DNA of 64,000 bases. It comes from Brachynemurus nebulosus (lineage: Eukaryota > Arthropoda > Insecta > Neuroptera > Myrmeleontidae). The stretch lies in the NCBI GenBank assembly GCA_035578155.1, contig JAPWDM010000024.1:1852501-1916500 (forward strand), written 5' to 3'. Below, piece after piece: positions 25,536 through 64,000 of the stretch. Position 1 is the stretch's first letter; each line of letters opens with the position of its first letter. The notes under the pieces are model-generated. The model was not told the DNA's origin and searched no databases. It saw only the letters and a program-made list of their open reading frames with translations. The position numbers and the translations under genes were made by a program.

Positions 25536-26706
25536 AGGGTTGATCGGGGTAATTGTGAACGGCGCCTATAATTTCTAAAATAACATTAATGTTGTTAAAG
25601 ATCAACTCTTAGTATATTTTTCTGTCCTTTCTTAATATGCTATTAAAATTTGATAACAATTCTCCAGGTATTAGTATCTTTTTTTTTTTTATTTTGAAAA
25701 AGCCCTTGCAAAATTCTGTGTATCTTACCTCGATCAATCCTCAAAAAAACTTTTTTTTTAAATACATTTTGTTTTTTTAAAAGGTAAGAAATGGTTAAAA
25801 GTACTTTTAAAGAAGTGGTCTAAACCCTGAGAGGGTTCCTTATTAACTGCTAAAGAAATTGGACAATTTATTACCAATTTTAAAATCAGGGGGTAATTGT
25901 GAACGTCATTCACAAATGCCCTCATTCGGTCAAAAATTTCAGTAGTGATTTTTTCAGAGTTGAAAATGTTCATGACGATGGTGGTGACATTGTTGAACAA
26001 GTTTCCGTTGTACAAACAATACAAAAAAAAAAATTGTGTAAAGAGCGATATGTTTTGTGTATCAATCTACGAAATCATTGCTGTGCTCCCTTACCCAATA
26101 ACAACCTGGGTACAAAAAATTACTTGTTTTCAATGTCTCTGTGAGTGTCCAAGGGGAGTAGGATTAACATAAAACCATTTTTTTTTTATTTACAGTATTA
26201 GGTCTAATAGATTGTTGTTTTTTGTTCATGTAAACTAAATGTATTTCCTTGAAAAATCCTCATTTTCCTTATTTTTGTGTGAAAATAATGTAATTTTTTA
26301 ATTTTTTATATGATAAAATGACAAAATATCATCAAAATATCATCTTTAGCTTGTAATAAATTTGTTCCTACAATTTTTGTTATTTTTATTTAACTTTGAT
26401 TTTTTGTACAAATTTGAGGTACGGGTAACTTGCATTAAATAAAGAGAAATTGTGACCGCTAAAGTATGATAAAAAATTTGAAAGTGGGGTAAATGTGAAG
26501 AATTTGAGTTGGGCTATACTCTGATGTACCTCACTTCTCTTGTAATCCATTCTAAATAATTTTTCTGATGGCATTCACTTTTACCTTAAAATTCATTAGA
26601 TTTGCAAAACCGTACCGGGAAAATGTGTAAAAATACTTAAAACAACGCTTTTATCTCAATTCATCTCATTCATTCAAAATCCCTTCACAATTACCTTGGT
26701 CAACCC
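25536..26706 (+). mobile_element. TIR element, copy A
   Basis: Starts AGGGTTGATCGGGGTAATTG and ends with the near-complement (CAATTACCTTGGTCAACCC). A second copy lies in opposite orientation at 27655-28961, including identical-looking 62- and 61-codon open frames (26386-26574 minus; 27886-28071 plus). The terminal word GGGGTAATTGTGAA recurs inside the element (for example at 25889 and, with changes, 26484). No transposase is recognisable, so it is non-autonomous or strongly decayed; family not assigned. Confidence 0.75.
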
Positions 26707-27654: not shown

Positions 27655-28961
27655 AGGGTTGACCGGGGTAACTGTGAATGGATTTTCATGTGGTGATAAA
27701 AGCGTTGTTTTAAGTATTTTTTATTTTATGTATCACATAATGGTTGATTTATTTTTAATTTCACGTTATTCAGGATACACCACACAAATTTTGAGCAAAT
27801 TCGTATGGAAAACAAAAATTTTATAAGCCATTCACATTTCCTCGGTGTGGTTTTGCAAATCTTATGAATTTTGGGGTAAAAGTGAATGCCATCAGAAAAA
27901 TTATTTAGAATGGATTACAAGAGAAGTGAGGTACATCAGAGTATAGCCCAACTCAAATTCTTCACATTTACCCCACTTTCAAATTTTTCACCATACTTTA
28001 GCGGTCACAATTTCTCTTTATTTAATGCAAGTTATGCATACCTCAAATTTGTACAAAAAGATCAAGGTTAAATAAAAATATCAAAAATTGTACGAACAAA
28101 TTTATTACAAGCTAAAAATGATATTATCGATGATATTTTGTCATTTTATCAAATAAAAAATCAAAAAATTACAAGATTTTCACACAAAAACAAGGAAAAT
28201 GAGACTTTTTTAAGGGAATACATTTAGTTAACATGAATAAAAAACAACAATCTATTAGGTATAATACTGTAGAAGAAAAAAAAATGGTTTTGTGTTAATC
28301 CTACTGCTCTTGGACACTCACAGAGACATTGAAAACAAGTAATTTTTCTGTTTTTGTAAGTTGTTATTGGGCAAGGGAGCTTAGCAATGATTTCGTAGAT
28401 TGATACACAAATTATATCGCTGTTTACACAATTTTTTTTTTCTTTTTTTGTATTGTTTGTAAACGGAAACTTATAAAGTAATGTCATCACCATCTTCATC
28501 AACATTTTCAACTCTGAAAAGAACACTACTGAAATTTTTGACCGAATGGGGGCATTTGTAAATGACGTTCACAATTACCCCACAATTTTAAAATCATGGG
28601 GTAATTGTGAATTGATAATAAATTGTCCAGTTTCTTTAGCAGTTAATAAGGAGCCCTCTGAGGGTTTAGACCACTTCTGTAGAAGTACTTCTAACCATTT
28701 CTTACATTTTAAAAAATAAAATGTATTTAAAAAAAATTTTTTTGAGGATTGTTCGAAGTAAGATACAAAAAATTTTGCAAGGGTTTTTTAAAAATAAAAA
28801 AAAGATACTATTACTTGGAGAATAGTTATCAAATTTTAATAGCATATTAAGAAAGGACAGAAAAATATACTAAGAGTTGATTTTTAACAATATTAATGTT
28901 ATTTTAGAAATTATAGGCTCTGTTCACAATTGCCCCAATTCACAATTACCCCGGTCAACCT
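27655..28961 (-). mobile_element. TIR element, copy B (inverted)
   Basis: Inverted, diverged copy of 25536-26706. It starts AGGGTTGACCGGGGTAACTG and ends CAATTACCCCGGTCAACCT. It is somewhat longer (about 1.31 kb against 1.17 kb). Internal landmarks in both copies are a GGGTAATTGTGAA block next to an ATTGTCCA block and a serine/lysine/phenylalanine-rich open frame starting MPSEKLFRMDY. Whether the open frames were ever translated is unknown. Confidence 0.75.
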
Positions 28962-47969: not shown

Positions 47970-48985
47970 GAATGCGATTATTTGGGCGAATGTCAGTAGA
48001 TAGGCTAGGAGAGAGCTGTGACACCGCAAAACTAAGCAACTTGAACCCTTTTGCCAATGTTTGAAATCGTGTAACTTTACGGTACTAGACATTCCGAACT
48101 GATGAGTCATCAAACTGTATCGATGTGCAAACCTTAACCTTTGACCCGGCACGTACCGAGTACATGTATTTAAAATTTGTTGTTGACATATGACCCCAAC
48201 ACTCGCTCATACTGCTGGCCTTGAAATTCCTAAGAGGTGAGTCATCGCCAGCAACCGAATTAATTATGTTAACCCATTATGCATCATCACTATTTTCGTC
48301 ACAATTTAGTTTTGTGTTAACCCATTACCCGCCATAGTTTTTGAATGCAAACCTAACGCATGCGCAGATTGAATTTAAGTACACGACGCATGCGCAGACT
48401 GAATTTTAGGTTACAATTTGATAGATGGGGTACACTACTGCGTCAAAAATGTGGGGTTACCCTAACTCGGGGGTGGCCCCAAACTTTTGACACCGTACTG
48501 TACTTAAATAATTGGTACACTGCCGTGTCAAAAGTGTGGACCCCCCCTGGCCAAAAAAGTATCCTATCACTTTTTGAAGCGTACTGTACGTGCAAACCTT
48601 GACCCCAACACGCGCTTGCCTTAATTGCGTCATCTTAAACGAACTATCACGTCAAAAAATGTGGGGAATACCCTAACCCAGGAGTAGCCCCAAACTTTTG
48701 ACGCCGTACTGTACTTAAATTTTTGGTACACTACCGTGTCAAAAGTGCGGGCCCCCCTGAGCAAAAAGGTATCCGATCACTTTTTGAAGCGTACTGTACG
48801 TGCAAACTTTAACCCCAACATGCGCTTACCTTAATTGCATCATTTTAAACGAACTACCAAGTCAAAAATGTGGGGAATACCCTAACCCAAGGGGTGGCCG
48901 CTAAATTTTGTGGGGGGCACTGTACCAAGCGCTAGCCGCAATCATGACTTCAGACTCCAGATTCCAGACTCCAGATTTCTGACCG
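47970..48985 (+). repeat. Left terminal inverted repeat of the Polinton
   Basis: 48210-48985 matches the reverse complement of 63224-64000 almost exactly; the one length difference I see is a single T in AATTAATTATG (left) against AATTAATTTATG (right). The left repeat extends further out, to about 47970, beyond what the window shows of the right one. It holds a ~210-bp tandem repeat and two direct GCATGCGCAGA words at 48360 and 48388. Confidence 0.93.
48423..48920 (+). repeat. ~210-bp tandem repeat inside the left TIR
   Basis: About 2.3 units with a period near 210 bp. Each contains CAAAAATGTGGGG, a CCCTAACCC block, CAAACTTTTGACACCG, TACTGTACTTAAAT, a CGTGTCAAAAGTG block and GAAGCGTACTGTACGTGCAA (48577 and 48787). 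The mirror image lies in the right TIR. Confidence 0.85.
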
Positions 48986-49752
48986 CTACTGTACTGCCGG
49001 AAATTTGGGTGTCAATTGTACTTGAGGTTTTTTTTTGTATATGAGTCAGCACTTTATAAGATGTTTATTTAATAAAAACTCGTGACTTTATACGGTTTGT
49101 GTTTGTTTATTTAAGATTTTTTAGCTGACTTAGGATGATGTAATTTCATAATATGTTTGCATCATAGCCAGAGGGGAATTTTATTTAAAAGCAAGTCACA
49201 ACTTGTCAGTTCCAGGAATTTGTTTACATTAATGTCATCGTAAATCATAAATTTAGCTATGTTTATTTAAGATTTTGCTGACTCATATTCAGATATTTTT
49301 TTAATTTGTTTATTTATATAAGTTTTAATTTAAAAAATATTTATTTAAGATTTTGACAACACAGCAATTTCTTTGTTTGATTTCAAATATGAAATAGTTT
49401 TCTCGGAATTTTTAATTTATGGCCTGATAATAATCAGGGGTTTTTTCAATTTGTTTATATAAGTTTTAATTTTTGTTTATTTAAAATTAGTCAGCAATTC
49501 TTTTATTAGGTTTCAAATGTGAAATAAATTTCTCGGAATTTGACATTTGACCTTCGGTTATTTGCGTTGTAAAAATTCTGAGCCAGCATTTTTTGTGATT
49601 CCCCTCCAGAATTTTTCGAGCAGTCAAAATCGTATAAATTGAGGTCTGCGTGCCCCCTCAAATCACTTCTTCAGCAAACTTCAAGCAGTTAATATTGTTA
49701 TTGTTGCAAGAATTTGTATCGAGGTTTTTTTTTTTAAAATTAAAATACAACA
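48986..49752. other. Polinton left noncoding region with direct repeats
   Basis: No gene. A ~100-bp direct repeat (about 49300-49411 and 49448-49543) shares TTTATATAAGTTTTAATTT and the ATTTCTCGGAATTT end. TTTGTTTATTTAAGATTTT recurs near 49102, 49261 and 49340. It lies between TIR and polB, so it may hold regulatory or replication sites. Confidence 0.6.
49633..49668 (+). promoter_or_regulatory. TATA plus initiator upstream of polB
   Basis: TATAAA at 49633-49638 and an initiator-like TCACTT at 49663-49668 are 32 bases apart (first T to the A), the usual RNA polymerase II spacing. The first codon of the predicted polB exon is at 49753. Confidence 0.6.
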
Positions 49753-52700
49753 ATGGCTTCATTAAACGACGTGGCAACTAGAATGGTGGAAAATGTACGA
49801 AACGCGCTATCATTACTGGAAATGGATACCCGGGATGCAGATGAATTGGAAAAATGGATGAAACATACAAATACCAACATAAGACTAATCAACAAGGCAA
49901 TTCGTGGAGCGGAAAACTTGGGACAACGCAAACATTTTGAATCATGTGCGGGAAAAATGAAAGGATTTCGAATCAGAATGAAGGCGCTACGAAAATATGG
50001 TAAGTTTTTTCAAATATAAATTTATTTTTTCTTATGACTTTTTTTATAATTTTGATATATCAACATGGTAAATTTTTTAAATATAAATTTTTTTTTAATG
50101 ATTTTTTATAAATTTGATAAATAATTTTTTTATGTTGATTGTTTCAGGTGCCGGCATGAATCGAAATCAACGTAAAAGATCTGATAGAATTCAATGGGCT
50201 GACGTGGAATCCGCATTTGCAAGTCGAATACGAACGGGAGTGGTTACCAACATAACACACATAGAGCCAAAGGACTTTTTAGACGACGCTACATCTATGT
50301 TCACTCGGCGAATACAAAATATATTAAAAAAATACTTAACGATAAAAGTCAACACAACGTTTTGCGGGTTATTTGTGAAAACTGATGGTGACGAGGATAA
50401 ATACGACATGAAACACTTCAATACACCGAATATCATAATAGATCGTGGAACAAACCTAAAACAGTGCTACATGGAACATGTACGGGAACCAATTTTGAGA
50501 AAATTGAGCGAGTTTACCGAGTCGGGGAGCGGATGGGCTTTATCAAGCATAATCAACCTAGCTGTGAACATCAACAAGTATACACCTTTCCGTGGATCAA
50601 GCTACATCGAATTACCTCAAGAAATAAAAACGAAAAAAGCATGTATCAACGTAAAAAACTTCAACGATGACGCCTGTTTCGCGTGGGCAGTGGTATCTGC
50701 ACTTCATCCAGCTACATCAAATAAAAATCCAGCTCGAACCACCTCTTACCCACACTACTCAACGGTGCTAAACTTGGACGGGATACAGTTCCCAATGACG
50801 ATCCAACAACTGAGCAAATTCGAGAAACAGAACCCAACAATATCAGTCAACGTGTTTATACTAAAAAAACAAAATGGACATTTCGAAACCGTACCTGCTG
50901 CGCTAACGAGAGAGAAGAAACAAAACCACATAAACCTTTTAATGATCCAGAATGAGTATTACGAGGATGAAGACAACGAACAGGACAACGATCAAGATTT
51001 ACGCTACCATTTCTGCTGGATTAAGGACTTATCAAAACTCGTGTCAAGACAATTATCAAATCGTAATGGGAAAAAATATATCTGTGATCGATGCTTAAAT
51101 TACTTTCGCACAGAAGATAAACTGATAAAACATACAGAAGACTGCGTGAACATGAACAACTGTCGGGTTATAATGCCGGAAGGGAAAAGCAAATACATAT
51201 CATTCAAGAACTACAGCAACAAGAAACGTGTTCCATTTATAATTTACGCCGACGTGGAATCATTCCTACAACCTGTGACGGGAAACGAAAATCAGAAGAA
51301 TACAACAACGTACCAACAACATCGGGCATACAGTATCGGTTACTACTTTCACTGCTCCTACAACAACCAACTAAGCTACTATAGATCATACCGCGGACCA
51401 AATTGCGAAAAATGGTTCGCAGAAGAATTGGCAACGTTACGTGAAAATATCTTGGAACCCATATACGACAACATAATACCAATGAACGAGTTAACACCAG
51501 AGGAACAACAGCAACTTAAACAACGAAGTACCGGGTGCCACATCTGCGAGAAACCATTCAAACCTGAGGATATTGTGGTTCGTGATCATAACCACTTCAC
51601 CGGCGAATACAATGGACCTGCGCACAAGGGATGCAACTTGAATTATAAGGATTTTCATATGATTCCTGTTGTATTCCACAACTTGAGTGGTTATGATGCA
51701 CATTTCGTAATAAAGGATATAGCAACAGCATTCGAGGGACGTGTCGACTTACTACCAATCAACAAGGAACGATACATTGCATTCACTAAACATGTTACGG
51801 GCAGCGAAATTACATTTAGATTCATCGACTCTTTCCGATTTATGGCATCAAGTTTGGATAAATTATCTTCATATCTCAACGAGTTCAACATAGTTAAATC
51901 ACAATTTCCGGATACCGACTACAAATTACTTACGCGCAAAGGTGTTTTTCCGTACGACTACATATCAGGTTGGGATAAATTGGAAGAAACATGTTTACCA
52001 TCACGGGAGAAATTCTACAATCGACTCAACGACAACGATATCACCATGGATGACTATACACACGCACAAAAAGTTTGGGATACATTCAACACACAGACGC
52101 TTGGAGAATACTCGGATTTATATATGAAAACGGACATACTACTACTCGCGGATGTTTTCGAGAATTTTCGGGATACGTGCATGCGCACACACGGATTGGA
52201 TCCAGCTCATTATTACACGACGCCGGGACTTACGTGGGATGCAGCCTTAAAATATACAAAAGTGGAGTTAGAACTGATATCTGATGTGGACCAATTATTA
52301 TTCATTGAACGTGGTATTCGAGGTGGATTGAGCCAGTGTAGTAACCGATACGCGACAGCAAACAATAAATATATGAACACCTACGATCCGGACGAGGAAT
52401 CAAAATACCTGATGTACTATGACGTGAACAACTTATATGGATGGGCAATGTCACAATACTTACCAACGGGAAATTTCAAATGGATGGAAAATACTGACAT
52501 AGATGTTCAACAAATACCCGATGATTCACCTACAGGATACATACTTGAAGTGGATTTGGAATACCCGAGAGAACTGCACGATAAACACAACGATTTACCA
52601 TTATGTCCAGAGAGAATGTGTGCACCCGGTACTAAACAGGAAATGTTATTGGCAACGCTATACAACAAACAGAAATACGTGATACACTATCGGAACCTGA

Positions 52701-53632
52701 AACAATGTCTACAACACGGGATGAAATTAAAGAAAATCCATAGAGTGCTACAATTCGATCAATCACCATGGCTTAAATCCTACATAGATTTAAACACAGC
52801 TCTAAGACAAACGGCGGGAAACGAATTCGAGAAAAATCTCTACAAGCTACTCAACAACGCGGTCTTCGGGAAAACGATGGAAAACGTACGGAAACACTCG
52901 ATCGTGAAATTGTTAACGAAATGGTATGGACGATATGGTGCGGAAGTTATGATAGCAAAACCGAATTTCCACAGCCGCACCATATTTGACGAGAATCTTA
53001 TTGCAGTCGAACTACGAAAAACGGAAGTGTTTATGAACAAACCAATATACGTCGGGCAAGCAATTCTGGATATTTCGAAAACATGTGTCTACGATTTTCA
53101 TTACAACTACATACAGCCAACGTTCGGGAACAACAGCAAATTACTCTACACGGATACCGATTCATTGATTTACGAGATAAAATGCTCAGATATTTACGAA
53201 ATAATGAAACGAGATATTCAATACTTCGATACGTCGGATTACAACGCGGATAATCAATATAACATGCCAAGAGTCAATAAGAAAATACCCGGGTTAATGA
53301 AGGATGAGCTAAATGGTCGAATCTTTACAAAATTTGTGGGCTTAAGATCGAAAATGTATAGTTGTCAAGTGGACGGCGAGGATCACACGAAGAAAGCGAA
53401 AGGTGTAAAGAATTCTGTGGTTAAGAAAACGATAACTTTCAACGATTACGTGGACTGTCTAAAACACAATACAATCATAAACCGACAACAAAACCTGATA
53501 CAATCGAAAAAACATAACGTGTATAGTGTAACTCAGAACAAGGTGGCGCTCAGCCCGTACGATACGAAACGATATATTGTGGAGGGGGAAACGGATACTT
53601 TAGCATGGGGACATTACTCGTTAAATTACTGA
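49753..53632 (+). CDS. polB: Protein-primed family B DNA polymerase (two exons)
   Basis: Replicates the element by protein priming. Predicted exons are 49753-49999 and 50148-53632 (about 1243 residues). Visible motifs, by nucleotide: a C2HC-type finger (CDRCLNYF, 51085-51145); exonuclease Exo I YADVES (51244-51261), Exo II HNLSGYDAHF (51677-51706) and Exo III LYMKTDILLLADV (52119-52157); a zinc/HNH-like CHIC...CNLNY insertion (51536-51650); polymerase motif A DVNNLYG (52421-52441), motif B KLLNNAVFGKT (52843-52875) and motif C YTDTDS (53147-53164); a KMYSC block after it. All catalytic residues are present and the large exon is open throughout. If exon 1 is not used, translation could begin at the Met at 50157. 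Motif A of the NLYG kind is typical of protein-primed PolBs. Confidence 0.95.
50000..50147 (+). other. Predicted 148-bp intron in polB
   Basis: GTAAGT follows codon 82 plus one base of the first exon, and a T-rich stretch ending TTGTTTCAG precedes 50148. Removing it keeps the reading frame (phase 1, a Gly codon at the join). Without splicing the first frame stops at 50019. A second, weak duplication (AAATTTTTT runs) fills the intron. Confidence 0.75.
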
Positions 53633-53667
53633 ATATCAACAACGTTAAAATTAGTACGCAAGTGGAA

Positions 53668-53787
53668 ATGGCATCGTCATCATCGGCTTACTGGAAACGG
53701 CTACAAATATTTTCAAGTGAACTGGATAAACTACGTAAACGGGTTGATACCTACGAAAAAACAATTGATGCTATTGTAAAAATGTAA
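53668..53787 (+). CDS. Small coiled-coil protein
   Basis: 39 codons from the Met at 53668 (sequence GAAATGGC is a good start context); an upstream in-frame Met at 53605 would overlap the polB end by 28 bases. Serine-rich start (MASSSSAYW), then a heptad-like charged helix (ELDKLRKRVDTYEKTID). It ends just before the next gene. Function unknown; it may be a small structural or accessory protein, or noise. Confidence 0.45.
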   Translation: MASSSSAYWKRLQIFSSELDKLRKRVDTYEKTIDAIVKM

Positions 53788-53829
53788 AATTTGAAATTGT
53801 CTGAACCGGAATCAATGTAGTGGGATAAA

Positions 53830-54417
53830 ATGGATGTTTCAATTGGTGAATTTTTCGAACGTGAACCAATGCTACTGAACGAACTGACTTTGGAAACATT
53901 TCTTCAAATCTACAAGTGGATCAGTTTGAATGTGTTGAAAAGTTATGGTGCGAAAATCATACAACGCGCCTGGATTTGGTTACCATCCGATTATCGAGCC
54001 ATGTTTCAAGAATGTGAACCATGTTTTGAACATTATAATCGACCCTGGCAACAAGATCATATTGATGGACCACCTGGTTTGAAAATTCGCTGTGAAATGT
54101 GCAAGAATGGTGTGAAAATGGAGGAAAACTTTCAACCGCCTGTTGGTGAACCATTGACATTTGCAACACAGATATCACACGTTGAAGACATATTTCTGAC
54201 TCATCCTTATTTGTATACAAAAGTCAGAAATTTCGATATGTTATTATACTTAACAAAACAACTATTGAAATATGATATTTGGGTGCAACATCTGTATGCA
54301 TATATGATACCCGAATATGCACAACGAATTTGTCAAGTATGGGATCAGTTACCTGAAAACATGAAACAATTACGTTCGGGTGTTATTGAATATATAAACA
54401 AATCATACAATTTTTAA
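53830..54417 (+). CDS. Polinton hypothetical protein with CxxC motif
   Basis: 195 residues, not recognised. It has an acidic, helical N-terminal part, an aromatic-rich centre (AWIWLPSDYRAMF), a CEMC pair and a CEPCFEHY pair about 30 residues apart that could bind a metal, and a helical C-terminal part. It lies just after polB on the same strand and has full coding character, so it is a real gene of this element. Its position suggests an early or accessory role, but the function is not known. Confidence 0.8.
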   Translation: MDVSIGEFFEREPMLLNELTLETFLQIYKWISLNVLKSYGAKIIQRAWIWLPSDYRAMFQECEPCFEHYNRPWQQDHIDGPPGLKIRCEMCKNGVKMEENFQPPVGEPLTFATQISHVEDIFLTHPYLYTKVRNFDMLLYLTKQLLKYDIWVQHLYAYMIPEYAQRICQVWDQLPENMKQLRSGVIEYINKSYNF

Positions 54418-54420
54418 TAT

Positions 54421-54637
54421 TTATTTATTGTAAAAAATAATTCATATACATTTATTGTAAAAAAATATTTCATATACAAAACATTTATTGTAAAAAATAT
54501 TACATATACATTTATTGTGAAAATATTTTGTATTCATACTTATATTTTAAAAATAAAGAACAATAATTATTTACATATATGTGTTATTTATTTGAAAAAA
54601 ACCTTTTTATCTTACAGATTATCAAAAATTAGATTGT
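54421..54637. other. Convergent intergenic region with 4 short tandem repeats and polyA signals
   Basis: Four copies of a TTTATTGTAAAAAATAT...CATATACA unit (27-33 bp) at 54421-54530. AATAAA on the plus strand (54552-54557) serves the rightward genes, and its complement near 54587 serves the leftward integrase unit. The two transcription units converge here. Confidence 0.7.
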
Positions 54638-55564
54638 TTAAACAATATCAGATTCTTGAATCCAGCTGTTGTTATCCGATGGGAAACCAAGCCACTTGAC
54701 CAATACTTTCCCATCACGTCTCTTCAGAATTCGTTCCACGAGGTACACATCAGGATATTTAACTTTCTGTAGTTCATACTCGTAAAAGCTACCTCGGATA
54801 GGCCGTTGATTGATATCTTCAAGTAGATATGTGACCGGATTTGTATGTTTAACTTTGACGATTTTAAAAATTTCCGTAGACCAATTCGGTGTGTAGCCTT
54901 TTTCAAAGATTGATTTAAATTTGCTAATTCGAACAAAGTCGTTAACTTTATACTTGGCTGCACCAGCAATTTTTATATTACTGTATACATTAGATAATAA
55001 ATATGCTTCATTATCAGCAGTGACATCTCGTGGAGCCATTTTGATTGTACGATGCTTTGTTCTATTATATTCATCAACTAAATCGTTAATTAATTGCAAC
55101 CATTTATAATTACCGTTTAGAGAAAAAGCACGCCAAAGTTTATTCTTAATGGTACGATTAAAACGTTCAACGATTGAAGCTTTTAACGTACTATATGTAG
55201 AATAATGATTAATATTATGTTTTTCCATTAACGCCTTAAAGTTACTATTAAAAAATTCTCGGCCGTCGTCTGTTTGAAGGTGCGTCGGTGTGCGCTTGCT
55301 CTGTTTGAATATTGATTCCATGGCAGCAGTAACAAGCACTCCAGATTTATCTTTTACCGGTACAGTCCAAGCATACTTCGAAAATGTGTCAATAGCTGTC
55401 AACAGGTACCTATATCCATGATTTTCTTTCCCATAAGCACCCATTTCAACAAGATCAGCTTGCCATAAATCATCGATACCCTTAGTTATAACACGACGCC
55501 TTTTGAAATTTTTACGAGCCGGTTTGTGTAATTCGCTTACAACTTGTTCTTTAACTTTACTCAT
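54638..55564 (-). CDS. Polinton integrase with chromodomain
   Basis: Inserts the element DNA into the host genome. 308 residues. The DDE core has Asp37 (WQADLVE), Asp99 (QTDDGREF) and Glu133 (IVERFNR), with 33 residues between the last two. An SH3-like part follows (DFVRISKFKSIF, about 209-260), and residues about 273-308 are a chromodomain (VYLVERILKRR, VLVKWLGF, NSWIQESDIV), as in other Maverick integrases, which may target histone marks. There is no N-terminal zinc finger. The start overlaps the end of the upstream gene by 8 bases (ATGAGTAA), which suggests coupled expression. All catalytic residues are present. Confidence 0.96.
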   Translation of the reverse strand: MSKVKEQVVSELHKPARKNFKRRRVITKGIDDLWQADLVEMGAYGKENHGYRYLLTAIDTFSKYAWTVPVKDKSGVLVTAAMESIFKQSKRTPTHLQTDDGREFFNSNFKALMEKHNINHYSTYSTLKASIVERFNRTIKNKLWRAFSLNGNYKWLQLINDLVDEYNRTKHRTIKMAPRDVTADNEAYLLSNVYSNIKIAGAAKYKVNDFVRISKFKSIFEKGYTPNWSTEIFKIVKVKHTNPVTYLLEDINQRPIRGSFYEYELQKVKYPDVYLVERILKRRDGKVLVKWLGFPSDNNSWIQESDIV

Positions 55565-55973
55565 CTTGAACTGTTGGCATGGTATTTACAGTGAGTTGCT
55601 TATATAGGTTCGAAATAAATTGTATTTTATTTTCTAATTGCTTAAATTTAACGTGAAATTCCTCTTTAAATACTGTATTTGCAATAGTTTCCATTACCAT
55701 TTTCAACTCATTATCCATGTTCTCCAAATGACTAAGTTTTGCGGTCACAATTGATTCAAATTGTTTATGTGAATTTTCAAGTGTTGTCATACCGTCCGAA
55801 ATTTTAGCAAGCGCTTCATTAAGAAAAGCCAAGTTAACAGCATCAGCTTTATGTTTAGGTGTGCGAACGTTTGTCAGACGTTTACCTTTCATATCGTAAT
55901 CACCATTCGTTGTTAAATTAATGGAAGCGGCTTTTCCGCCACTGCTGAATCGACCGAATTTGTCAACGCTCAT
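55557..55973 (-). CDS. Fibre-like protein with helical stalk
   Basis: 138 residues. Residues about 23-54 match a DMxxKRLxNVxxPxxxxDAVNxxxL pattern (here DYDMKGKRLTNVRTPKHK, then ADAVNLAFL), which recurs in phage tail fibres and in many Polinton proteins. About residues 55-130 are a long helix with heptad-like spacing (likely trimeric coiled coil). It could be a receptor-binding fibre or its base, but the C-terminal knob expected of a fibre is absent. It sits directly upstream of the integrase in the same leftward unit. Function inferred only. Confidence 0.7.
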   Translation of the reverse strand: MSVDKFGRFSSGGKAASINLTTNGDYDMKGKRLTNVRTPKHKADAVNLAFLNEALAKISDGMTTLENSHKQFESIVTAKLSHLENMDNELKMVMETIANTVFKEEFHVKFKQLENKIQFISNLYKQLTVNTMPTVQDE

Positions 55974-56011
55974 GTTTGAAATGACTATCTAATCAGGTTG
56001 ATCACCTGTAT

Positions 56012-56992
56012 TTATTCTATTACATCAGCCTCGCGCAATTCCTCTAAAATGGCTTGTATCTCATTTTGATGATTGGTGTGTCCAGCTTGCTGTGACGCAA
56101 CCAATAATATTAGCCTATCGATAAGTTCGTCTATATCATTCCAATAACGATAATCAATCGTTTGATTAGCATCATAATGCATTAAACCGGAACCGGTTGG
56201 TTGTCGTTTGGGTGTTGACGTGTACCTTGGTGACGATGGAAAAAGTTTTTTTATAATTATTCTATACTTATAACTTTGATTTGAATTAACTGGTGCATTA
56301 ATATTATAACTTCTTTTATGCGCATTAGTACTTTTTAAAATGGTCTTATAAGTATCTAAATCCGACTCTGTGTATACATGATGATTTGGATATTTTTTAA
56401 ACATTAACTCAAAGAGACCTTCAGTACCGGGGTAAACGATGTTGTTAATAATAAAATTATCATCAATTATATCCAATTCAGAATTACCAATCATCCATTT
56501 ATTTGTTCGCTCATCTATACGCGGTCCATAGGTACGATCAAGGGTTCTTTTAGCTCTACGTGTGGTTGCCAACGTGAGATATTTTTCAGCTAGTGCACCA
56601 ACATAGGGTTTTGCTGTAGGTTGACTACTTTGTTCCATCACATAAGGTGTTGCTGTAGGTTGACTACTTTGTTCCATAAGCGTTGACCTAAATATCTCAG
56701 TATCATCATCATTATTATCATTACTAAGAAAATGTGACTTTATATCGACATCAGAATCGGTTGAAAAACGTGCTTTTTTAATTTTAGGTTTTTCATCTTT
56801 AAGCAAGAAACTTTTTATTGGTTCATTTCTTATTTCAGCAGCTAGTTCCTTAAGTGGCTCCGTTATTGGCTTAAATGATTCTTGTAAATTTTTCTCTCGT
56901 TTAAACTGACTATCTTTGAGCGCACGGTATTTGGCGCGTATAGATTTTGTAGCATTGATGATTTTTCGTTTTAGCTCCCGTTCGCTATCCAT
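56012..56992 (-). CDS. Polinton conserved protein (DUF8207-like)
   Basis: 326 residues. The lysine-rich N-terminal helix is followed by a disordered, acidic region with a 13-residue tandem duplication (MEQSSQPTATPYV then MEQSSQPTAKPYV, residues 106-131). From about residue 154 the block YGPR...WMIGN...DDNFIINN...YPGTEGLFEL...YT...YKTILKSTNAH is, from memory, the DUF8207 signature found in insect Polinton-derived proteins. Its role is not known. It heads the leftward unit that continues with the fibre-like protein and the integrase. The 13-residue duplication is in a linker and is probably recent. Confidence 0.85.
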   Translation of the reverse strand: MDSERELKRKIINATKSIRAKYRALKDSQFKREKNLQESFKPITEPLKELAAEIRNEPIKSFLLKDEKPKIKKARFSTDSDVDIKSHFLSNDNNDDDTEIFRSTLMEQSSQPTATPYVMEQSSQPTAKPYVGALAEKYLTLATTRRAKRTLDRTYGPRIDERTNKWMIGNSELDIIDDNFIINNIVYPGTEGLFELMFKKYPNHHVYTESDLDTYKTILKSTNAHKRSYNINAPVNSNQSYKYRIIIKKLFPSSPRYTSTPKRQPTGSGLMHYDANQTIDYRYWNDIDELIDRLILLVASQQAGHTNHQNEIQAILEELREADVIE

Positions 56993-57034
56993 AGTGTGTG
57001 CGTGCTTATGCTATTACAGTTTACTAGCAAATGT

Positions 57035-57065
57035 GCAGTGTGAACGTGTACACAGCCATTTTATA
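57035..57065 (-). promoter_or_regulatory. TATA plus initiator of the leftward unit
   Basis: On the minus strand TATAAAA (57065 to 57059) and an initiator-like TCACACT 28 bases downstream precede the start codon at 56992 by about 45 bases. Confidence 0.5.
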
Positions 57066-57100
57066 GCTTTTTCGAACCGAATTGATGAACTGAACAGAGA

Positions 57101-57432
57101 TTTCGGTCGAACCGCACACTATTTCGGTCGAACCGCACACATTTTCGGTCGAACCGCACACTATTTCGGTCGAACCGCACACTATTTCGGTCGAACCGCA
57201 CACTATTTCGGTCCAACCGCACACTATTTCGGTCCAACCGCACACATTTTCGGTCCAACCGCACACTATTTCGGTCCAACCGCACACATTTTCGGTCGAA
57301 CCGCACACTATTTCGGTCCAACCGCACACATTTTCGGTCGAACCGCACACATTTTCGGTCCAACCGCACACTATTTCGGTCCAACCGCACACGTTTTCGG
57401 TTGAACCACACACTATTTCGGTCCAACCGCAC
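57101..57432. repeat. 21-bp x 16 tandem array
   Basis: Sixteen units (the last partial) of 21 bp, each TTTCGGTC(G/C)AACCGCACAC plus one or two variable bases. Sites of G/C variation fall at one position. Because the unit is 21 bp, frames on both strands stay open (for example a FGRTAHY repeat), but these are by-products. The array is flanked by TTCGAACCGAA at 57071-57081 and its complement TTCGGTTCGAA at 57573-57583. It lies upstream of the leftward unit and downstream of the packaging ATPase. It could be an enhancer, a replication or packaging site or a binding array for an element-encoded protein. Confidence 0.96.
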
Positions 57433-57625
57433 TGCATCAGTAGGTATGGGGCCACTTGGCAACGCAGTGTAATTGCCTATATTCAGGGGCAAGTATTTGA
57501 ATATTGATGCTGAGTAAGTATAGTATCATCTAGCAATGAACTATATGTAAATGGTAAAATGAGTTAGTCTATTTCGGTTCGAAACACAATGGTATTTCAT
57601 ATAGAAATAATCTATATGTTATTGA

Positions 57626-58318
57626 TCAGTTTTTAATTTGAATAAAGATATCGAAATTTTTACGATACCTTCCGCTATTCAACTCACTGTCTTTATCTAT
57701 AACCAAAAAGTTGAACCTTTCACGCCAACATTCATTGCAAATTTCTTTGAACTGATCGAATAACATGTCACTACCTACATGTTCTTGGAAAACGTGTTTG
57801 ATATTAGTCAAATCTTGTTTAAATAAAACTATTAAATTAGCATTATCCCTAAGTAATTGTTTTGGTATGAAACTGTATGTCTGACAAAGATAGAAGACTG
57901 AAACATCTTTATGACGCCCCATACTGAAATATGCTCTAATATTATTTTGTTTATCCGTAGCAACATCGTCAAATATAAAAATTGAATTATTTTTTACATC
58001 TTCTGGTGCTATAACATCATCATTATTAGAAAAAGTAAAATATCCTAAACCCCTTATTGGTTTAAGAACGCGTTTCAGATACTCATACTTTGGTTGACAG
58101 AGTGATTTTGAATAGAGATAAATATTTTCAAAACTTAATCCATTCGGATGTTCTAATAAATTTAATAAAATGCTAGTCTTGCCACACCCCGAAGGACCAG
58201 AGATTATACATCTTATACTATTCGGTAATAAGGGGCCATGCTTTTTTTCAGCTAATGTGGTTGACACAAAATCCATATTTTTGATTGGCAGTTCAACATC
58301 TTGTTTTACGAAACGCAT
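57626..58318 (-). CDS. FtsK/HerA-type packaging ATPase
   Basis: Packs the genome into the capsid. 230 residues. Walker A GPSGCGKTS at residues 41-49, Walker B SIFIFDDVA with Asp117 and Asp118, followed by a Gln-containing strand (LCQTYSFI) and an arginine-finger-like tail. Length and motifs fit the A32-like ATPases of Polintons and large DNA viruses. It is transcribed leftward, divergent from the small gene at 58384. Confidence 0.92.
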   Translation of the reverse strand: MRFVKQDVELPIKNMDFVSTTLAEKKHGPLLPNSIRCIISGPSGCGKTSILLNLLEHPNGLSFENIYLYSKSLCQPKYEYLKRVLKPIRGLGYFTFSNNDDVIAPEDVKNNSIFIFDDVATDKQNNIRAYFSMGRHKDVSVFYLCQTYSFIPKQLLRDNANLIVLFKQDLTNIKHVFQEHVGSDMLFDQFKEICNECWRERFNFLVIDKDSELNSGRYRKNFDIFIQIKN

Positions 58319-58383
58319 TTTTAACGCTACTGATTTATTATATAAGCGCTCAGCCCCTTATATACTTACGCGCAGTAGTCATC
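58319..58383. promoter_or_regulatory. Bidirectional promoter between ATPase and the 58384 gene
   Basis: A 65-bp gap separates divergent start codons. Rightward: TATATA at 58360-58365 upstream of ATG 58384. Leftward: a TATATAA box at 58337-58343 on the minus strand with an ATCAGTAGC initiator-like block. Confidence 0.55.
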
Positions 58384-58683
58384 ATGAATCACTACAGCGT
58401 GGATTGGCGCACCTTAGGTCTTGAATGTATACTCGTCAACAATGAATTTAATTGTTGCAGTGATCCACAAGTTACCGACAACAATGAAATTAAATGGTTT
58501 AACGATTCTGATGAACCATTGTTGTCAATAACTTTTAATCATATTGAAAAGGATGATATTATGCATCTATGTATTATAATTTCTAATTGTTGTAAAAAGA
58601 GGATTTATTTGATTGAAAGTGATCAAAATTGTAAATTAGCTGTTCATGAAATTGATTCATTTCAATTTTTCATGAATCTATAA
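58384..58683 (+). CDS. Hypothetical small Polinton protein
   Basis: 99 residues from Met 58384 (an upstream in-frame Met at 58285 lies inside the ATPase gene). Acidic, cysteine-containing (a CC pair at NNEFNCCSD and ISNCCKKR), with alternating hydrophobic strands, so perhaps a beta-rich fold. It precedes the PLA2 gene directly and its end overlaps the next TATA box. No family recognised. Confidence 0.7.
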   Translation: MNHYSVDWRTLGLECILVNNEFNCCSDPQVTDNNEIKWFNDSDEPLLSITFNHIEKDDIMHLCIIISNCCKKRIYLIESDQNCKLAVHEIDSFQFFMNL

Positions 58684-58716
58684 ATAGCTCGAATCAAATT
58701 TTATTAACATTCAGTT
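58679..58716 (+). promoter_or_regulatory. TATA plus initiator of the virion gene cluster
   Basis: TATAAATA at 58679-58686, overlapping the stop of the previous gene, and TCAGTT at 58711-58716 just before the PLA2 start codon (58720). The spacing is slightly long (about 34). A very short 5' leader would result. Confidence 0.6.
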
Positions 58717-58719
58717 CTA

Positions 58720-59493
58720 ATGTTACGTCACAACCGGCAACAACAACGAAGTGGTCGTGGACTTGTTAATTCATTAATTAACAAATTGCCATTTGAACTT
58801 CACATACCTGGCTATCAATATTGTGGACCGGGTACAAAATTACAAGAAAGATTAGCAAGAGGTGATCCGGGCATCAATAAATTAGACGAAGCTTGTAAGG
58901 CACACGATATCGCTTACTCGCAAAGTAAAAATCTCTCTGATCGACATAAGGCAGATTTAATTTTAGCAAACGCAGCCTGGGATCGAGTTAAATCTTCAGA
59001 CGCAACATTTGGTGAAAAAGCTGCTGCGTGGGCCGTAACAAACGCAATGAAAGCTAAAGTAAAACTTGGTATGGGTGTTAACAAAAAGGCTACACTCGGT
59101 CAAGTGCGAAGAAGTGTACGCGGTACTGTTAAAAAATTAAAACGTGAACCAATTAATAATGCTGTAAAGCTTGCTCTTAAAGCGGCTAAAGTTGCAGCTA
59201 GGGGTAAAAAAATTAAAACACCACGTATTATTCCAATACCTAAAACGGGTGGTGTTCTACCACTTTTACCAATTTTTGCGGCACTTTCGGCAGCCGGTGC
59301 GCTAGCCGGGGGTGCATCTGGAATTGTGAAAGCTATTAATGATGCTAAAGCGGCACAAAAACAGTTGAATGAAAGTGAACGCCATAACCGAACGATGGAG
59401 GCTATTGCTATACGTAATGGCCGGGGTTTGTATATAAAACCATATAGAAAAGGATTAGGATTATACTTGCAACCGTATCCAAAAAACTTATAA
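58720..59493 (+). CDS. Phospholipase A2-domain minor virion protein
   Basis: 257 residues. Residues 30-85 are a secreted-type PLA2 core like that of parvovirus VP1: calcium loop YCGPGT (34-39), catalytic His62-Asp63 (HDIAY), and Asp79. In parvoviruses this enzyme breaks the endosomal membrane during entry; adintoviruses and Polintons carry a similar gene. The second half is lysine-rich, then a glycine/alanine-rich hydrophobic stretch (about 177-203) that may be a membrane-active segment, and a tail with GRGLYIKPY and GLGLYLQPY repeats. The stop overlaps the protease start (TAATG). A role as a minor capsid protein released on entry is inferred. Confidence 0.9.
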   Translation: MLRHNRQQQRSGRGLVNSLINKLPFELHIPGYQYCGPGTKLQERLARGDPGINKLDEACKAHDIAYSQSKNLSDRHKADLILANAAWDRVKSSDATFGEKAAAWAVTNAMKAKVKLGMGVNKKATLGQVRRSVRGTVKKLKREPINNAVKLALKAAKVAARGKKIKTPRIIPIPKTGGVLPLLPIFAALSAAGALAGGASGIVKAINDAKAAQKQLNESERHNRTMEAIAIRNGRGLYIKPYRKGLGLYLQPYPKNL

Positions 59494-59873
59494 TGAAATT
59501 GCCCGAGCGGGCACTAACAGATAGAGATTTACGTAAATATGCGAAATATTTACCCCATTTTCGTGGTGTATTTATGCGCGATAATTTACCCAAACGTGGA
59601 CCGTGGTATAATGAATGCGGTATTTTAAATTTAGATAGTTCTACCGGACCTGGTACTCATTGGACCTGTTACTGGAAAAATGGTAATCAGGTAGATTATT
59701 TTGATAGTTTTGGTAATTTAAAACCACCGCTTGAAGTGGCTCGCTACCTCAGTGGAAACAATATTACATACAATTATAATAAATATCAAGATTACAATTC
59801 CTATAAATGTGGTCATTTATGTTTGGAGTTTCTTTATAATAAATATTACGGTGATGGTGATAAATATTTATAA
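59493..59873 (+). CDS. Adenain-type cysteine protease
   Basis: Processes virion proteins during maturation. 126 residues, shorter than adenovirus adenain (about 200). Visible catalytic residues: His56 (GTHWTCYW), Asp68 or Asp71 (VDYFDSFG) and Cys106 in CGHLC, in the His-Asp-Cys order of the adenain/Ulp1 clan. GPWYNECG at the N-terminal side fits the substrate-binding wall. It overlaps the PLA2 stop by one base and precedes the penton gene, so these are translated from one virion unit. Confidence 0.9.
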   Translation: MKLPERALTDRDLRKYAKYLPHFRGVFMRDNLPKRGPWYNECGILNLDSSTGPGTHWTCYWKNGNQVDYFDSFGNLKPPLEVARYLSGNNITYNYNKYQDYNSYKCGHLCLEFLYNKYYGDGDKYL

Positions 59874-59919
59874 AAGAAATCAATGCTCACGTATGTTTGT
59901 CATTTCGAAAGACGAAGTC

Positions 59920-60630
59920 ATGGCGTTCACATTAACTTTGTCGGGAAATACTTCTATACTCACTGCACACTATTTTCCGGCAATTCAACTTAGAAATCAA
60001 TATGAGTGTGCTCTATTAGATTTCCAAGTATACAATTCAATTCCTAACGTAACTGCTAAAAATAATTTATTACATTACGGTGATAATGATGTAATATCAT
60101 TTCCTACCGGCACCTTTGAAATAGATGATTTAGCTACATATATAAACAAAACTATTTACAACAAGTATGGTAATATAATATATAACAACGAAAATGATAA
60201 ACCATACATACATCTAAGGGCTAATAATAACACACTCAAATGCGAAATAATTAGCAATAAAGCTATTGATTTCACTAAACCTAATACAATTGGTTCACTT
60301 TTAGGGTTTACTAAACGGATATTGGCACCAAACAAACTTCACTCATCTAATGAGCCTGTCAGTATTATGAAGGTGAATGCAATACGCATTGAATCTAATA
60401 TTACGAGTAATGCTTATATGAATGGTATGCTAGCTCACACACTTCACGAATTTTCACCTCTTGTTGCGCCAGGGTATAAAATAGTTGAGGTACCGCGAAA
60501 TATAATCTATTCACCAGTAACCGTTAGAGAGTTAACATCTCTTTCGTTGAAAATTATCGATCAAGACGGTGATTTGGTTGACTTTCGCGGTGAAACAATC
60601 ACAGTACGTTTGCATTTGAGACCATGTTAA
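59920..60630 (+). CDS. Penton / minor capsid protein (single jelly roll)
   Basis: 236 residues from Met 59920 (MAFTLTLSGNTS), the conserved start of insect Polinton penton proteins; a Met at 59893 is an alternative. The sequence matches this family: ANLTAHYFPAI-like opening, SIPNV, LLHYGDND and a PTGTFEIDDL block. Single-jelly-roll proteins form the capsid vertices. The stop overlaps the next start by 7 bases (ATGTTAA). Present and uninterrupted. Confidence 0.85.
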   Translation: MAFTLTLSGNTSILTAHYFPAIQLRNQYECALLDFQVYNSIPNVTAKNNLLHYGDNDVISFPTGTFEIDDLATYINKTIYNKYGNIIYNNENDKPYIHLRANNNTLKCEIISNKAIDFTKPNTIGSLLGFTKRILAPNKLHSSNEPVSIMKVNAIRIESNITSNAYMNGMLAHTLHEFSPLVAPGYKIVEVPRNIIYSPVTVRELTSLSLKIIDQDGDLVDFRGETITVRLHLRPC

Positions 60631-60815
60631 TTTACAATCTGGAGCAACCCGCCGCTAGACTATATAATAGAGCGTTTTTACAGCCTGAGCTCATTCAGTT
60701 GAATACCATTAAACGTAAAGCATTTAAGCAACAGCGTATTTCACCTGAACGTTTAGCATTTCTTGAAGCATTGGGTCATAAAGTTAAAAGAAAATGGTAT
60801 ACAGCGACGTATTAA
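60624..60815 (+). CDS. Small basic protein between penton and MCP
   Basis: 63 residues, lysine/arginine-rich (KRKAFKQQR, HKVKRKWY). It overlaps the penton end by 7 bases and the MCP start by 22. Tightly packed, so a real virion gene; a DNA-condensing or capsid cement protein is a guess from its charge. No family recognised. Confidence 0.65.
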   Translation: MLIYNLEQPAARLYNRAFLQPELIQLNTIKRKAFKQQRISPERLAFLEALGHKVKRKWYTATY

Positions 60816-61987
60816 ATATTCCTGGTGGCTCACAAATTGATGATAGCATTACGAACTTTGAATATCATACATATGCACCCTTTTTACGATCCTTTAAGAA
60901 TAATGACGAAGTTAGAATATTAATTCAAAACCAGGACTTGTACATTTTACCTAGTGAAAGTTTTATTTACATTGAGGGGAAAATTTTAAATAATGAAAAT
61001 GCCGTTCCAGATATAAAATTGGTTAATAATTGTATTGCCTTTCTATTCGATGAAATTAGATATGAATTAAATGGGGTTGAACTTGAACGTGTTAGGTATG
61101 TTGGTCTAACAACGACATTGAAAAATTATTTATCGTTAAACGATGATGAGAGTAAACAATTACTAAATGCTGGTTGGTCGATTGATAATGATTGTACAAT
61201 AAAATTACCACAAGCCAACTTTAACTTTTGCATCCCGCTTAGAAAATTATTGGGATTCGCTGAGGATTATGGAAAAATTATGTTAAACGCAAAGCATGAA
61301 TTAATTCTTATTCGTGCACGAACTGACAACGATGTAATTGTTTCAGAATCGAATTCGTTGAAATTTGAAATAAATAAACTCGAATGGCGTGTTCCACATG
61401 TAACTGTATCAGATGAAATTAAATTATCACTGCTAAAATATGTTGAAAAAGCTGAACCTATAAAGATTAGTTTTAGAGCGTGGGAAACTTATATTCAACC
61501 TGCATTACCCACTACACAACAAAACACTTGGGTTGTAAAAACAACTACACAGCTAGAAAAACCGCGATATATCATTTTCGCTTTACAGAAAAAGGATAAA
61601 AATGTTTCTAAGTTTGATCATTGTGATTTAAATAATTTCAAAGTTTACCTAAATTCACAAGTGTACCCTTATGATGATTTGAATATTAAATTTGATATTA
61701 ATCAGTATGCAATACTTTATGATATGTATACCCGCTTTCAATCCTCATACTATCATCGTTCCAATGAACCGCTCTTAAATTGGGAAAATTTTAAAACTAT
61801 AGCTCCGATAGTTTTTATTGATTGCTCACATCAAAATGAGTCACTGAAAAGCGGTTCAGTTGATGTTCGTTTAGAATTTAAATGTAATAAAGATATTCCG
61901 GCTGGTACGACAGCAATAGCCATTTTAGTTCATGATGTCATTTTCGAATACATTCCACTAACTAACCTGGTTAAAAAGTATACCTAA
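60794..61987 (+). CDS. mcp: Major capsid protein (double jelly roll)
   Basis: 397 residues. Forms the trimeric hexamers of the icosahedral capsid. The opening (IDDSITNFEYHTYAPF) and the LYILPSESFIYIEG strand fit the Polinton/adintovirus major capsid family, a double jelly roll like that of adenovirus hexon and virophages. Hallmarks of the second barrel (KFDINQYAILYDMYTRF) are visible. Length is close to what I expect for the family. No frameshifts. Confidence 0.88.
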   Translation: MVYSDVLNIPGGSQIDDSITNFEYHTYAPFLRSFKNNDEVRILIQNQDLYILPSESFIYIEGKILNNENAVPDIKLVNNCIAFLFDEIRYELNGVELERVRYVGLTTTLKNYLSLNDDESKQLLNAGWSIDNDCTIKLPQANFNFCIPLRKLLGFAEDYGKIMLNAKHELILIRARTDNDVIVSESNSLKFEINKLEWRVPHVTVSDEIKLSLLKYVEKAEPIKISFRAWETYIQPALPTTQQNTWVVKTTTQLEKPRYIIFALQKKDKNVSKFDHCDLNNFKVYLNSQVYPYDDLNIKFDINQYAILYDMYTRFQSSYYHRSNEPLLNWENFKTIAPIVFIDCSHQNESLKSGSVDVRLEFKCNKDIPAGTTAIAILVHDVIFEYIPLTNLVKKYT

Positions 61988-62012
61988 TTACCCCCACCAC
62001 TTTTAGTTATTC

Positions 62013-62048
62013 TATATAAAGTTGTGGATTGTGTGAATAATTTCAGTT
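62013..62048 (+). promoter_or_regulatory. TATA plus initiator of the 62067 gene
   Basis: TATATAAA at 62013-62020 and TCAGTT at 62043-62048, 30 bases from TATA to the initiator A, followed by ATG at 62067. The best promoter match in the element. Confidence 0.75.
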
Positions 62049-62066
62049 CTACGGCGGCGGTAAAAA

Positions 62067-62552
62067 ATGGCGTTTCTTGACATACAAGGCTATCAAGGAG
62101 CTAACAACGAATTTTATTTTAAAGAAGTTGGTATTGCTGCAGAAAATTCAGATGATATATTACATCTTATATTCGACGCACCGTTTGATTTCAACGAGTT
62201 GCCGAAGAAATATCAACGAGTAGCCCGTTGGCTTTGCCGAAATTGGCATGGAATACCTTGGTCGTATGGATTTATTCCGTACAAAAAACTTCATACCATA
62301 TTAAAACCTATATTAAAGAAGTATGATGTTATATACGTCAAGGGCGGTGAAAAGAAGAAATGGATATCAAGTTTGTTTGATGGTACCGAAAACCAGCCGT
62401 GGATTCTGAATTTGGAAGAAATATTTGATGTACCGAAGATTTCTATTCTGCGAGATGAATATTATTCAAGACGCTGTATGCTTCATTCAGATAAAATTTG
62501 TTCATTAGAAAATTGTATTCTTTTAAAAAATTTTTATATGGAAAATAAATAG
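62067..62552 (+). CDS. Polinton-associated conserved protein (LDIQGY/KEVGI type)
   Basis: 161 residues. The opening FLDIQGYQG...FYFKEVGI and the block RWLCRNWHGIPWSYGFIPYK are, from memory, shared by many insect and Polinton proteins of unknown function. A first D-x-Q strand followed by a lysine/glutamate strand suggests a nuclease-like (RNase H-like) fold, but I cannot show the full catalytic set. A CSLENC pair lies near the end. It has its own promoter and is the last gene before the right TIR. Confidence 0.8.
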   Translation: MAFLDIQGYQGANNEFYFKEVGIAAENSDDILHLIFDAPFDFNELPKKYQRVARWLCRNWHGIPWSYGFIPYKKLHTILKPILKKYDVIYVKGGEKKKWISSLFDGTENQPWILNLEEIFDVPKISILRDEYYSRRCMLHSDKICSLENCILLKNFYMENK

Positions 62553-63223
62553 ATTTTAAGTAATATATAGATTTAAGCAATTTAATTTTTTGTGTACATT
62601 TATTCTATAAATAAAATTTAAAAAAAAAATTATGTGCGTTTTATTTAATAGTTACCCTAAATTCCCCTATTTTTTACAGCAAGAAGTTACTTTCATTAAC
62701 CTATAAAAGTATTGACAAAAATCTTATGAAATTTTTTTATTCTAATTGAAAAGCATATTTCATGATACACCCTGTATAAGAATACACTCATGCATACATG
62801 CATTTATACCTGCACCTATGTATACATGCATTTGTATATAATAATTATATTATGTATGTGTGATGTAAGTTTTAAGATGATATTCTATATATTTTTTACC
62901 CCAAAACTACTAATTTATAAAAAAATTTAGCAAATCTTAATGCTGTTATAATTTTTATATTAAACAACATAGTTAAATTATAGTATACATATTAAGAAAT
63001 AATCCAGGTATTTATTGTACAGTAATATATACGAATTTATTTGCAAACATATTACTTTTTGCTAATGAAGCAAATATTTTTCCAATGCTGATAAAAGTGA
63101 TAAATTATTTTAGTTAGATTTTGTTGACATAAAGACTACAATCATTTACTAGTATGTATTTATAAAATTAAAATTAAATAGGGATATACAGAGTGTATAC
63201 ATAACATATTCTTAATATACAAC
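62553..63223. other. Polinton right noncoding region
   Basis: No gene. AATAAA at about 62610 serves the preceding gene. A (ATGTATACATGCATT)-like duplication lies near 62790-62835. It ends at the right TIR. Confidence 0.6.
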
Positions 63224-64000
63224 CGGTCAGAAATCTGGACTCTGGAATCTGGAGTCTGAAGTCATGATTGCGGCTAGCGTTTGGTACAGTGCCCCCCACA
63301 AAATTTAGCGGCCACCCCTTGGGTTAGGGTATTCCCCACATTTTTGACTTGGTAGTTCGTTTAAAATGATGCAATTAAGGTAAGCGCATGTTGGGGTTAA
63401 AGTTTGCACGTACAATACGCTTCAAAAAGTGATCGGATACCTTTTTGCTCAGGGGGGCCCGCACTTTTGACACGGTAGTGTACCAAAAATTTAAGTACAG
63501 TACGGCGTCAAAAGTTTGGGGCTACTCCTGGGTTAGGGTATTCCCCACATTTTTTGACGTGATAGTTCGTTTAAGATGACGCAATTAAGGCAAGCGCGTG
63601 TTGGGGTCAAGGTTTGCACGTACAGTACGCTTCAAAAAGTGATAGGATACTTTTTTGGCCAGGGGGGGTCCACACTTTTGACACGGCAGTGTACCAATTA
63701 TTTAAGTACAGTACGGTGTCAAAAGTTTGGGGCCACCCCCGAGTTAGGGTAACCCCACATTTTTGACGCAGTAGTGTACCCCATCTATCAAATTGTAACC
63801 TAAAATTCAGTCTGCGCATGCGTCGTGTACTTAAATTCAATCTGCGCATGCGTTAGGTTTGCATTCAAAAACTATGGCGGGTAATGGGTTAACACAAAAC
63901 TAAATTGTGACGAAAATAGTGATGATGCATAATGGGTTAACATAAATTAATTCGGTTGCTGGCGATGACTCACCTCTTAGGAATTTCAAGGCCAGCAGTA
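63224..64000 (-). repeat. Right terminal inverted repeat of the Polinton, truncated by window end
   Basis: Reverse complement of 48210-48985. It includes the mirror of the ~210-bp tandem repeat. The outermost part, about 240 bp by comparison with the left end, lies beyond the window. Confidence 0.93.

Follow-up and report, generated by a model that had tools for sequence, protein, structure and literature searches.

A large, apparently recent burst of an adintovirus-like Polinton/Maverick, and shorter elements with the same termini, in the genome of Brachynemurus nebulosus

The window analysed here is a stretch of 64,000 nucleotides of contig JAPWDM010000024.1 (C68:1852501-1916500) from the Brachynemurus nebulosus assembly GCA_035578155.1 (960 Mb, 138 contigs). 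Its right-hand part holds a Polinton/Maverick of 16,221 bp, hereafter the 16-kb element, which runs from window position 47995 to 64215, so that its last 215 bp lie outside the window. An earlier note, made from the sequence alone, had placed an intact, adintovirus-like Polinton/Maverick at 47970..64000; the element is indeed present, but its left end is at 47995 and its right end at 64215. The latter (C68:1916715) was located by aligning the stretch to the right of the window with the left terminal inverted repeat (TIR), an extension that the note had proposed together with a search for a 6-bp target duplication. This duplication, AATGTC, was found at both ends. The note had also described the TIRs as nearly identical, and they agree in 988 of 992 columns (one column being a gap), the in-window part of the right TIR being 99.5% identical to 48210-48985. 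The left TIR opens with AGTAG at 47995 and includes 2.2 copies of a 210-bp tandem repeat. Long TIRs that start with AG and a target duplication of 6 bp, both expected of Polintons/Mavericks, are thus found here.

The area of the element contains 13 open reading frames (ORFs) of at least 100 aa. Two of them (56958-57404 and 57024-57437) are probably not genes, since both lie over a 21-bp minisatellite. The core genes PolB, integrase, ATPase, PLA2, protease-like, penton and major capsid protein (MCP) each form a single open frame, as the note had stated; their coordinates and those of the other features are collected in table 1.

Table 1. Features of the 16-kb element, in window coordinates (E, expectation value).
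Feature	Position	Strand	Remark
Left target duplication AATGTC	47989..47994		right copy directly after 64215
Left TIR	47995..48985	+	begins AG
88-aa ORF	49753..50019	+	in short element L078, a relative adjoins broken PolB
Protein-primed type DNA polymerase B (PolB), 1166 aa	50132..53632	+	PF03175, motifs by eye
o195, 195 aa	53830..54417	+	also in 6 of 10 short elements
Integrase, 308 aa	54638..55564	-	rve, E=2.8e-15, and C-terminal chromodomain
138-aa ORF	55557..55973	-	open in 8 of 8 other copies over the part seen
o326, 326 aa	56012..56992	-	short C-terminal motif in common with short-element zinc-finger protein
21-bp minisatellite, 15.9 copies	57100..57432		open on both strands
Packaging ATPase, 230 aa	57626..58318	-	Pox_A32, PF04665, E=2.8e-10
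Phospholipase A2 protein (PLA2), 257 aa	58720..59493	+	PF08398, E=1e-12
Putative adenovirus-type cysteine protease, 126 aa	59493..59873	+	catalytic-type motif by eye
Penton (predicted), 258 aa	59854..60630	+	structure prediction, single jelly roll
MCP, 397 aa	60794..61987	+	double jelly roll, PF21738, E=1e-122
o161, 161 aa	62067..62552	+	excess of synonymous change
Right TIR	63224..64000	-	interrupted by window edge; true end at 64215

These gene assignments draw on several kinds of evidence. For PolB, PF03175 was matched by one 400-aa piece of four (E=5e-12) and by neither the full length nor the other three pieces. An OTU-like PolB domain defines the adintovirus group (PMC11071296, in excerpt); no N-terminal domain of this type was matched in Pfam at E<=0.1, in a scan that would miss remote relatives. 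The chromodomain of the integrase (PF00385, E=2.5e-5) is borderline, at 24.6 bits versus a Pfam cut-off of 25.1, and a Rhino chain matches the same residues (E=0.001); the integrase also matches the HTLV-2 and PFV integrase chains, and D37, D99 and E133 are present, with roles assigned by eye. The protease-like protein has no Pfam family and a weak PDB match to the ASFV S273R protease (E=0.019). The folds of penton and MCP are supported by structure prediction: the matches of the penton model include a protein from Drosophila-associated adintovirus 2 (E=5.8e-7) as well as adenovirus and giant-virus proteins, a list that fits a penton fold, and the predicted MCP matches the PBCV-1 MCP in Foldseek (E=9.1e-16). 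The MCP has 1151 relatives, and among the 120 listed, all those with an organism name come from insects; in IMG/VR, 18 pattern stretches gave no confirmed relative. For o161, no relative was found at E<=1e-3 among 5.8 billion proteins, in a search of limited sensitivity in which 5 candidates shared words, and PDB gave nothing of note (best E=0.9). PHROGs and NCBIfam yielded, integrase aside, weak matches only. The minus-strand frame of the minisatellite matches a plant antifreeze beta-roll (E=5.8e-13), probably a repeat effect.

A retroviral-type integrase, an A32-type ATPase and a double-jelly-roll MCP with a single-jelly-roll penton, all expected of a Polinton/Maverick, are present, as is the rve integrase with C-terminal chromodomain that marks adintoviruses (PMC11071296, in excerpt), the chromodomain score being borderline. 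Termini, gene families and the integrase-chromodomain protein support the adintovirus-like Polinton/Maverick classification given in the note. The element is of the insect type and of a known kind.

It is far from alone in its genome. A comparison of copies within the genome, also proposed in the note, revealed at least 104 full-length MCP copies (residues 1-397) of 98-100% identity, none of which contained a stop; as 104 of 1739 first-look candidates were scored, this number is a lower bound and biased toward good copies. We sampled 20 of the other 103 MCP places, spread across the ranking. Perfect 6-bp duplications flank 19 of these 20 copies (18 found by script, and L027 by hand with a one-base shift); for L025, the right TIR was not found within its stretch. 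All 19 duplications differ from one another, so these copies are separate insertions. An inflation of the copy number by duplication or collapse in the assembly, to which its 138 contigs lend some colour, is thereby rendered highly improbable. An assembly join at the TIRs, which according to the note would overturn its reading, is likewise unlikely, because the duplication of the element itself is perfect and those of the 19 copies are different perfect ones. PLA2, penton and MCP have no internal stop in the 20 sampled copies, and the integrase is open in seven of eight copies fetched, the eighth (L026) having a 17-nt deletion.

The variants among copies suggest purifying selection on several genes. 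Over 21 copies (20 for o161, L025 being dropped), an excess of synonymous change is observed in PLA2 (15 synonymous versus 11 nonsynonymous variants, p=0.00067, mean pN/pS 0.199), protease (7 versus 3, p=0.0022, 0.036), MCP (17 versus 11, p=4e-5, 0.146) and o161 (14 versus 11, p=0.00028, 0.133), these being binomial tests with a transition bias of 2 on variants that are not independent of the relatedness among copies. Over 25 copies, the median dS of the MCP is 0.0165 and its summed dN/dS 0.153, a value that leans low because copies were chosen by MCP score; other genes are affected only indirectly. Purifying selection on Maverick core genes was already published for cyprinid fish (PMC8097293, in excerpt), and our result is therefore a confirmation rather than a discovery.

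The note had suggested a recent insertion on the grounds of near-identical TIRs and intact catalytic motifs. The insertion does appear recent, but the 104 near-identical MCP copies support this better than the TIRs do. Compared over their first 1000 bp, ends are on average 99.27% alike within an element versus 91.7% between elements (n=17: the window's element and 16 of the 20 copies, L012, L021, L025 and L027 being left out for want of anchors), and for 24 of the 34 ends no other end is closer than the sister end. BLAST gave 95.2-99.7% for 18 of the 19 TIR pairs found and 87.0% for that of L021. TIR pairs being far more alike within than between elements, their identity is no clean clock; one TIR could be copied from the other during linear replication, which would keep the two ends of an element alike.

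The right arm is, in addition, mosaic. In 19 aligned copies (L025 left out), block 62751-63150 exists as two alternative sequences, 93-100% alike to the window in 13 copies and 60-63% in 6. On one side, the adjoining last 100 bp of o161 are 100% alike; on the other, the outer TIR is 91-97% alike in most copies, and in 4 of the 6 copies with the divergent block, similarity is 71-72% over the innermost 180 bp of the TIR. The block and the ends suggest, in our inference, recombination among co-replicating elements. An extra gene in this variable block was looked for in 10 copies, and no new ORF of note was found.

The termini are also borne by shorter elements. A 31-bp terminus, with at most 2 mismatches, occurs 166 times in the genome, 83 times in each orientation (control: 0). 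Among 100 places listed, 43 facing pairs were recognized, 34 spaced 6.6-12.0 kb and 9 spaced 16.2-16.9 kb, with 14 termini unpaired; 7 of the 9 long pairs and none of the 34 short ones enclose one of the 104 MCP matches, in a count that covers one terminus type, the listed places and the best MCP places only. Perfect target duplications flank all 10 short elements tested (two are TATATA). Pieces of 2.4-7.7 kb were read from 10 short elements, L086 and L108 being two pieces of one element; within these pieces, to which the absence is confined, integrase, ATPase, PLA2, protease and MCP gave no tblastn match. Instead, 9 of the 10 carry a C2H2 zinc-finger gene (Pfam zf-C2H2), of the type zf340 in six and of a second type, 29-30% identical to zf340, in three. 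The zf340 protein shares a short C-terminal motif with o326 (BLASTP E=0.004). In L080 (C1:13177722-13180122), two inverted, facing copies of zf340 occupy the middle of a short element of 10.2 kb, and L078 and L079 contain 21-bp arrays of other units than that of the minisatellite, with up to 35 copies.

These 6.6-12 kb elements might be dead, immobile leftovers, arisen in place by deletion from 16-kb insertions. Such an origin would suit L078, in which every match to a long gene of the 16-kb element is broken, and the state of o195, which is cut short by a stop at codon 183 of 195 in L079 and L084, is fragmented in L080 and L082, and is open in only two of the six short elements that carry it; moreover, zf340 is split in L082 and shows 4 synonymous versus 20 nonsynonymous differences, without constraint, between L079 and L084, the one pair compared. 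The perfect duplications of all 10 elements speak for mobility, although alone they would also fit deletion in place. In three elements (L078, L079 and L108), 72-76 nt separate the ends of the alignments to window positions 60820 and 61985: they share a deletion of nearly the whole MCP gene, which points to a single ancestor with this deletion that was then copied to several places. In L086 and L087, which are among the longest short elements, the last 343 and 383 PolB residues are open and 99.7 and 99.5% identical to those of the window, and o195 is open and 99.5% identical. We thus regard an origin as dead leftovers as improbable. The gene o161 is split in L078, L079 and L108. L079 is nearly a mirror form, with the right-hand arm at both ends (2,782 aligned columns, 99.0%) enclosing o195 and zf340; such a form would be expected from end-to-end copying in a linear genome with inverted repeats, as in the defective genomes of adenoviruses.

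Taken together, the 16-kb element is very likely a complete, recently inserted and autonomous insect adintovirus-like Polinton/Maverick, one copy of a large young burst and a helper for shorter elements. Its own PolB would replicate it as linear DNA, with protein priming, a process that would also keep its two TIRs alike, and the rve-chromo integrase would insert the DNA, producing the 6-bp duplication. We consider that the short elements are probably satellites mobilized in trans by this helper, because of the shared MCP-deletion scar, the termini and the duplications: 6-bp duplications and helper termini, without integrase in the pieces read, are best explained in this way. Packaging of the DNA by MCP, penton, ATPase, protease and PLA2, at least intermittently, is somewhat more probable than its absence; the intact capsid genes and the synonymous excess are consistent with particle formation, and no more. 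Conversely, the element could be a purely self-synthesizing transposon spreading in the germ line, with capsid genes as passengers and no particles. The short elements, which also spread with perfect target duplications and without capsid genes in the pieces read, would fit this, as would the penton gene, which lacks significant constraint; yet short elements can borrow proteins in trans, MCP, protease, PLA2 and o161 show a synonymous excess, and the frame is open in every one of the 104 MCP copies scored (these last two being biased toward intact copies). This alternative therefore appears rather unlikely.

Several observations nevertheless weigh against the reading of an intact, autonomous helper. 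A visible lesion exists in 4 of the 20 sampled copies; L012 has a changed MCP start codon, L020 one stop in the protease, L025 is truncated on its right side, within o161, and L026 carries the integrase deletion mentioned above. The survey of these 20 copies covered PLA2, protease, penton, MCP and o161, and in eight copies the integrase. The penton has 7 synonymous and 12 nonsynonymous variants (p=0.16, mean pN/pS 0.429) and the integrase 11 and 12 over 9 copies, while the test on MCP leans toward conservation, the copies having been picked by MCP protein score. The protease assignment depends on a motif read by eye, and the decay of o195 and zf340 in the short elements described above must be added to this list.

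It is possible, if doubtful, that the short elements are packaged with helper proteins; a regulation of the helper by their zinc-finger proteins is conjectural. The full proposition, by which they would be genuine satellites of an endogenous animal virus, in which a zinc-finger regulator replaced the capsid-integrase module, replicated and integrated by helper enzymes and packaged in helper particles, is unlikely as a whole, and may be likened to phage-inducible islands exploiting phages. Were it true, helper and satellites would form a complete system within one genome, with recombination at the ends. Particle production by animal Polintons is a long-standing question, for which more than 100 open capsid genes in young copies and a size class seemingly without capsid and integrase genes provide natural controls. 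If the short forms spread after loss of the capsid-integrase module, they must have been complemented in trans, and it becomes testable whether this took place at replication, integration or packaging.

Elsewhere in the window, the element seems to be inserted into an older retroelement, its flanks resembling, by eye, two halves of a gypsy-like polyprotein. The evidence for this is weak: it consists of a left-flank match to the RNase H frame of another gypsy element in the window (36% over 45 aa, E=5e-5) and a right-flank match to rve_3 under the cut-off (E=0.0088), and one left-flank frame has no Pfam family. That other Ty3/gypsy-type retroelement (16698-24637, plus strand) has RNase H, integrase H2C2, rve and p58 C-terminal domains and, downstream of these, a Monjiviricetes-type fusion glycoprotein (PF24664) split between two frames (E=3.3e-52 and 6.1e-64), by its sequence a captured, broken envelope gene. 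A 1.1-kb inverted pair (25543-26627 and 27833-28939, 88.7% identical) lies outside the Polinton. A Rfam scan of 40000-64000 gave no match at gathering score.

Comparison with known systems rests here on excerpts of the papers cited. The Mavericks of Spodoptera frugiperda cells (PMC5803895), which are reported as transcribed, similarly have a PolB of approximately 3500 bp, an integrase with chromodomain, an A32-like ATPase, a PLA2-bearing protein and an adenain-like protease (putative in the present element); they lack a PY capsid protein, whereas a clear double-jelly-roll MCP adjoins the penton here, and the excerpt mentions no satellites. Adintoviruses, including Drosophila-associated 1-3 (PMC8363768, PMC11071296), share PolB, integrase, capsid, FtsK/A32-type ATPase and, putatively, the protease; they measure 13-15 kb versus 16.2 kb here, and differ from the present element in that the latter is integrated in more than 100 copies. 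Vertebrate Mavericks (PMC8097293) likewise display 6-bp duplications, TIRs, intact core genes and purifying selection on capsid genes, with a reported maximum of 38 intact copies per genome (all core genes) versus at least 104 here (MCP only); the excerpt mentions neither PLA2 nor short zinc-finger elements. In Polintons in general (PMC4028283), as here, the penton gene lies a short way upstream of that for the MCP, the capsid proteins are of jelly-roll type, and an ATPase and a protease (putative here) are encoded; the excerpt describes neither a copy burst nor short companions. A massive, apparently recent expansion is known from the Mavericks of Trichomonas vaginalis (PMC7845603), with approximately 5,000 copies, but in a protist host and with elements of up to 30 kb and up to 20 genes. 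A helper-satellite arrangement, or non-autonomous, satellite or defective Polintons or Mavericks, were not found in the open-licence literature searched. Among DNA transposons in general, non-autonomous forms are well known. What is new here is not the element but its surroundings, namely the burst of copies and the class of short companions with the same termini.
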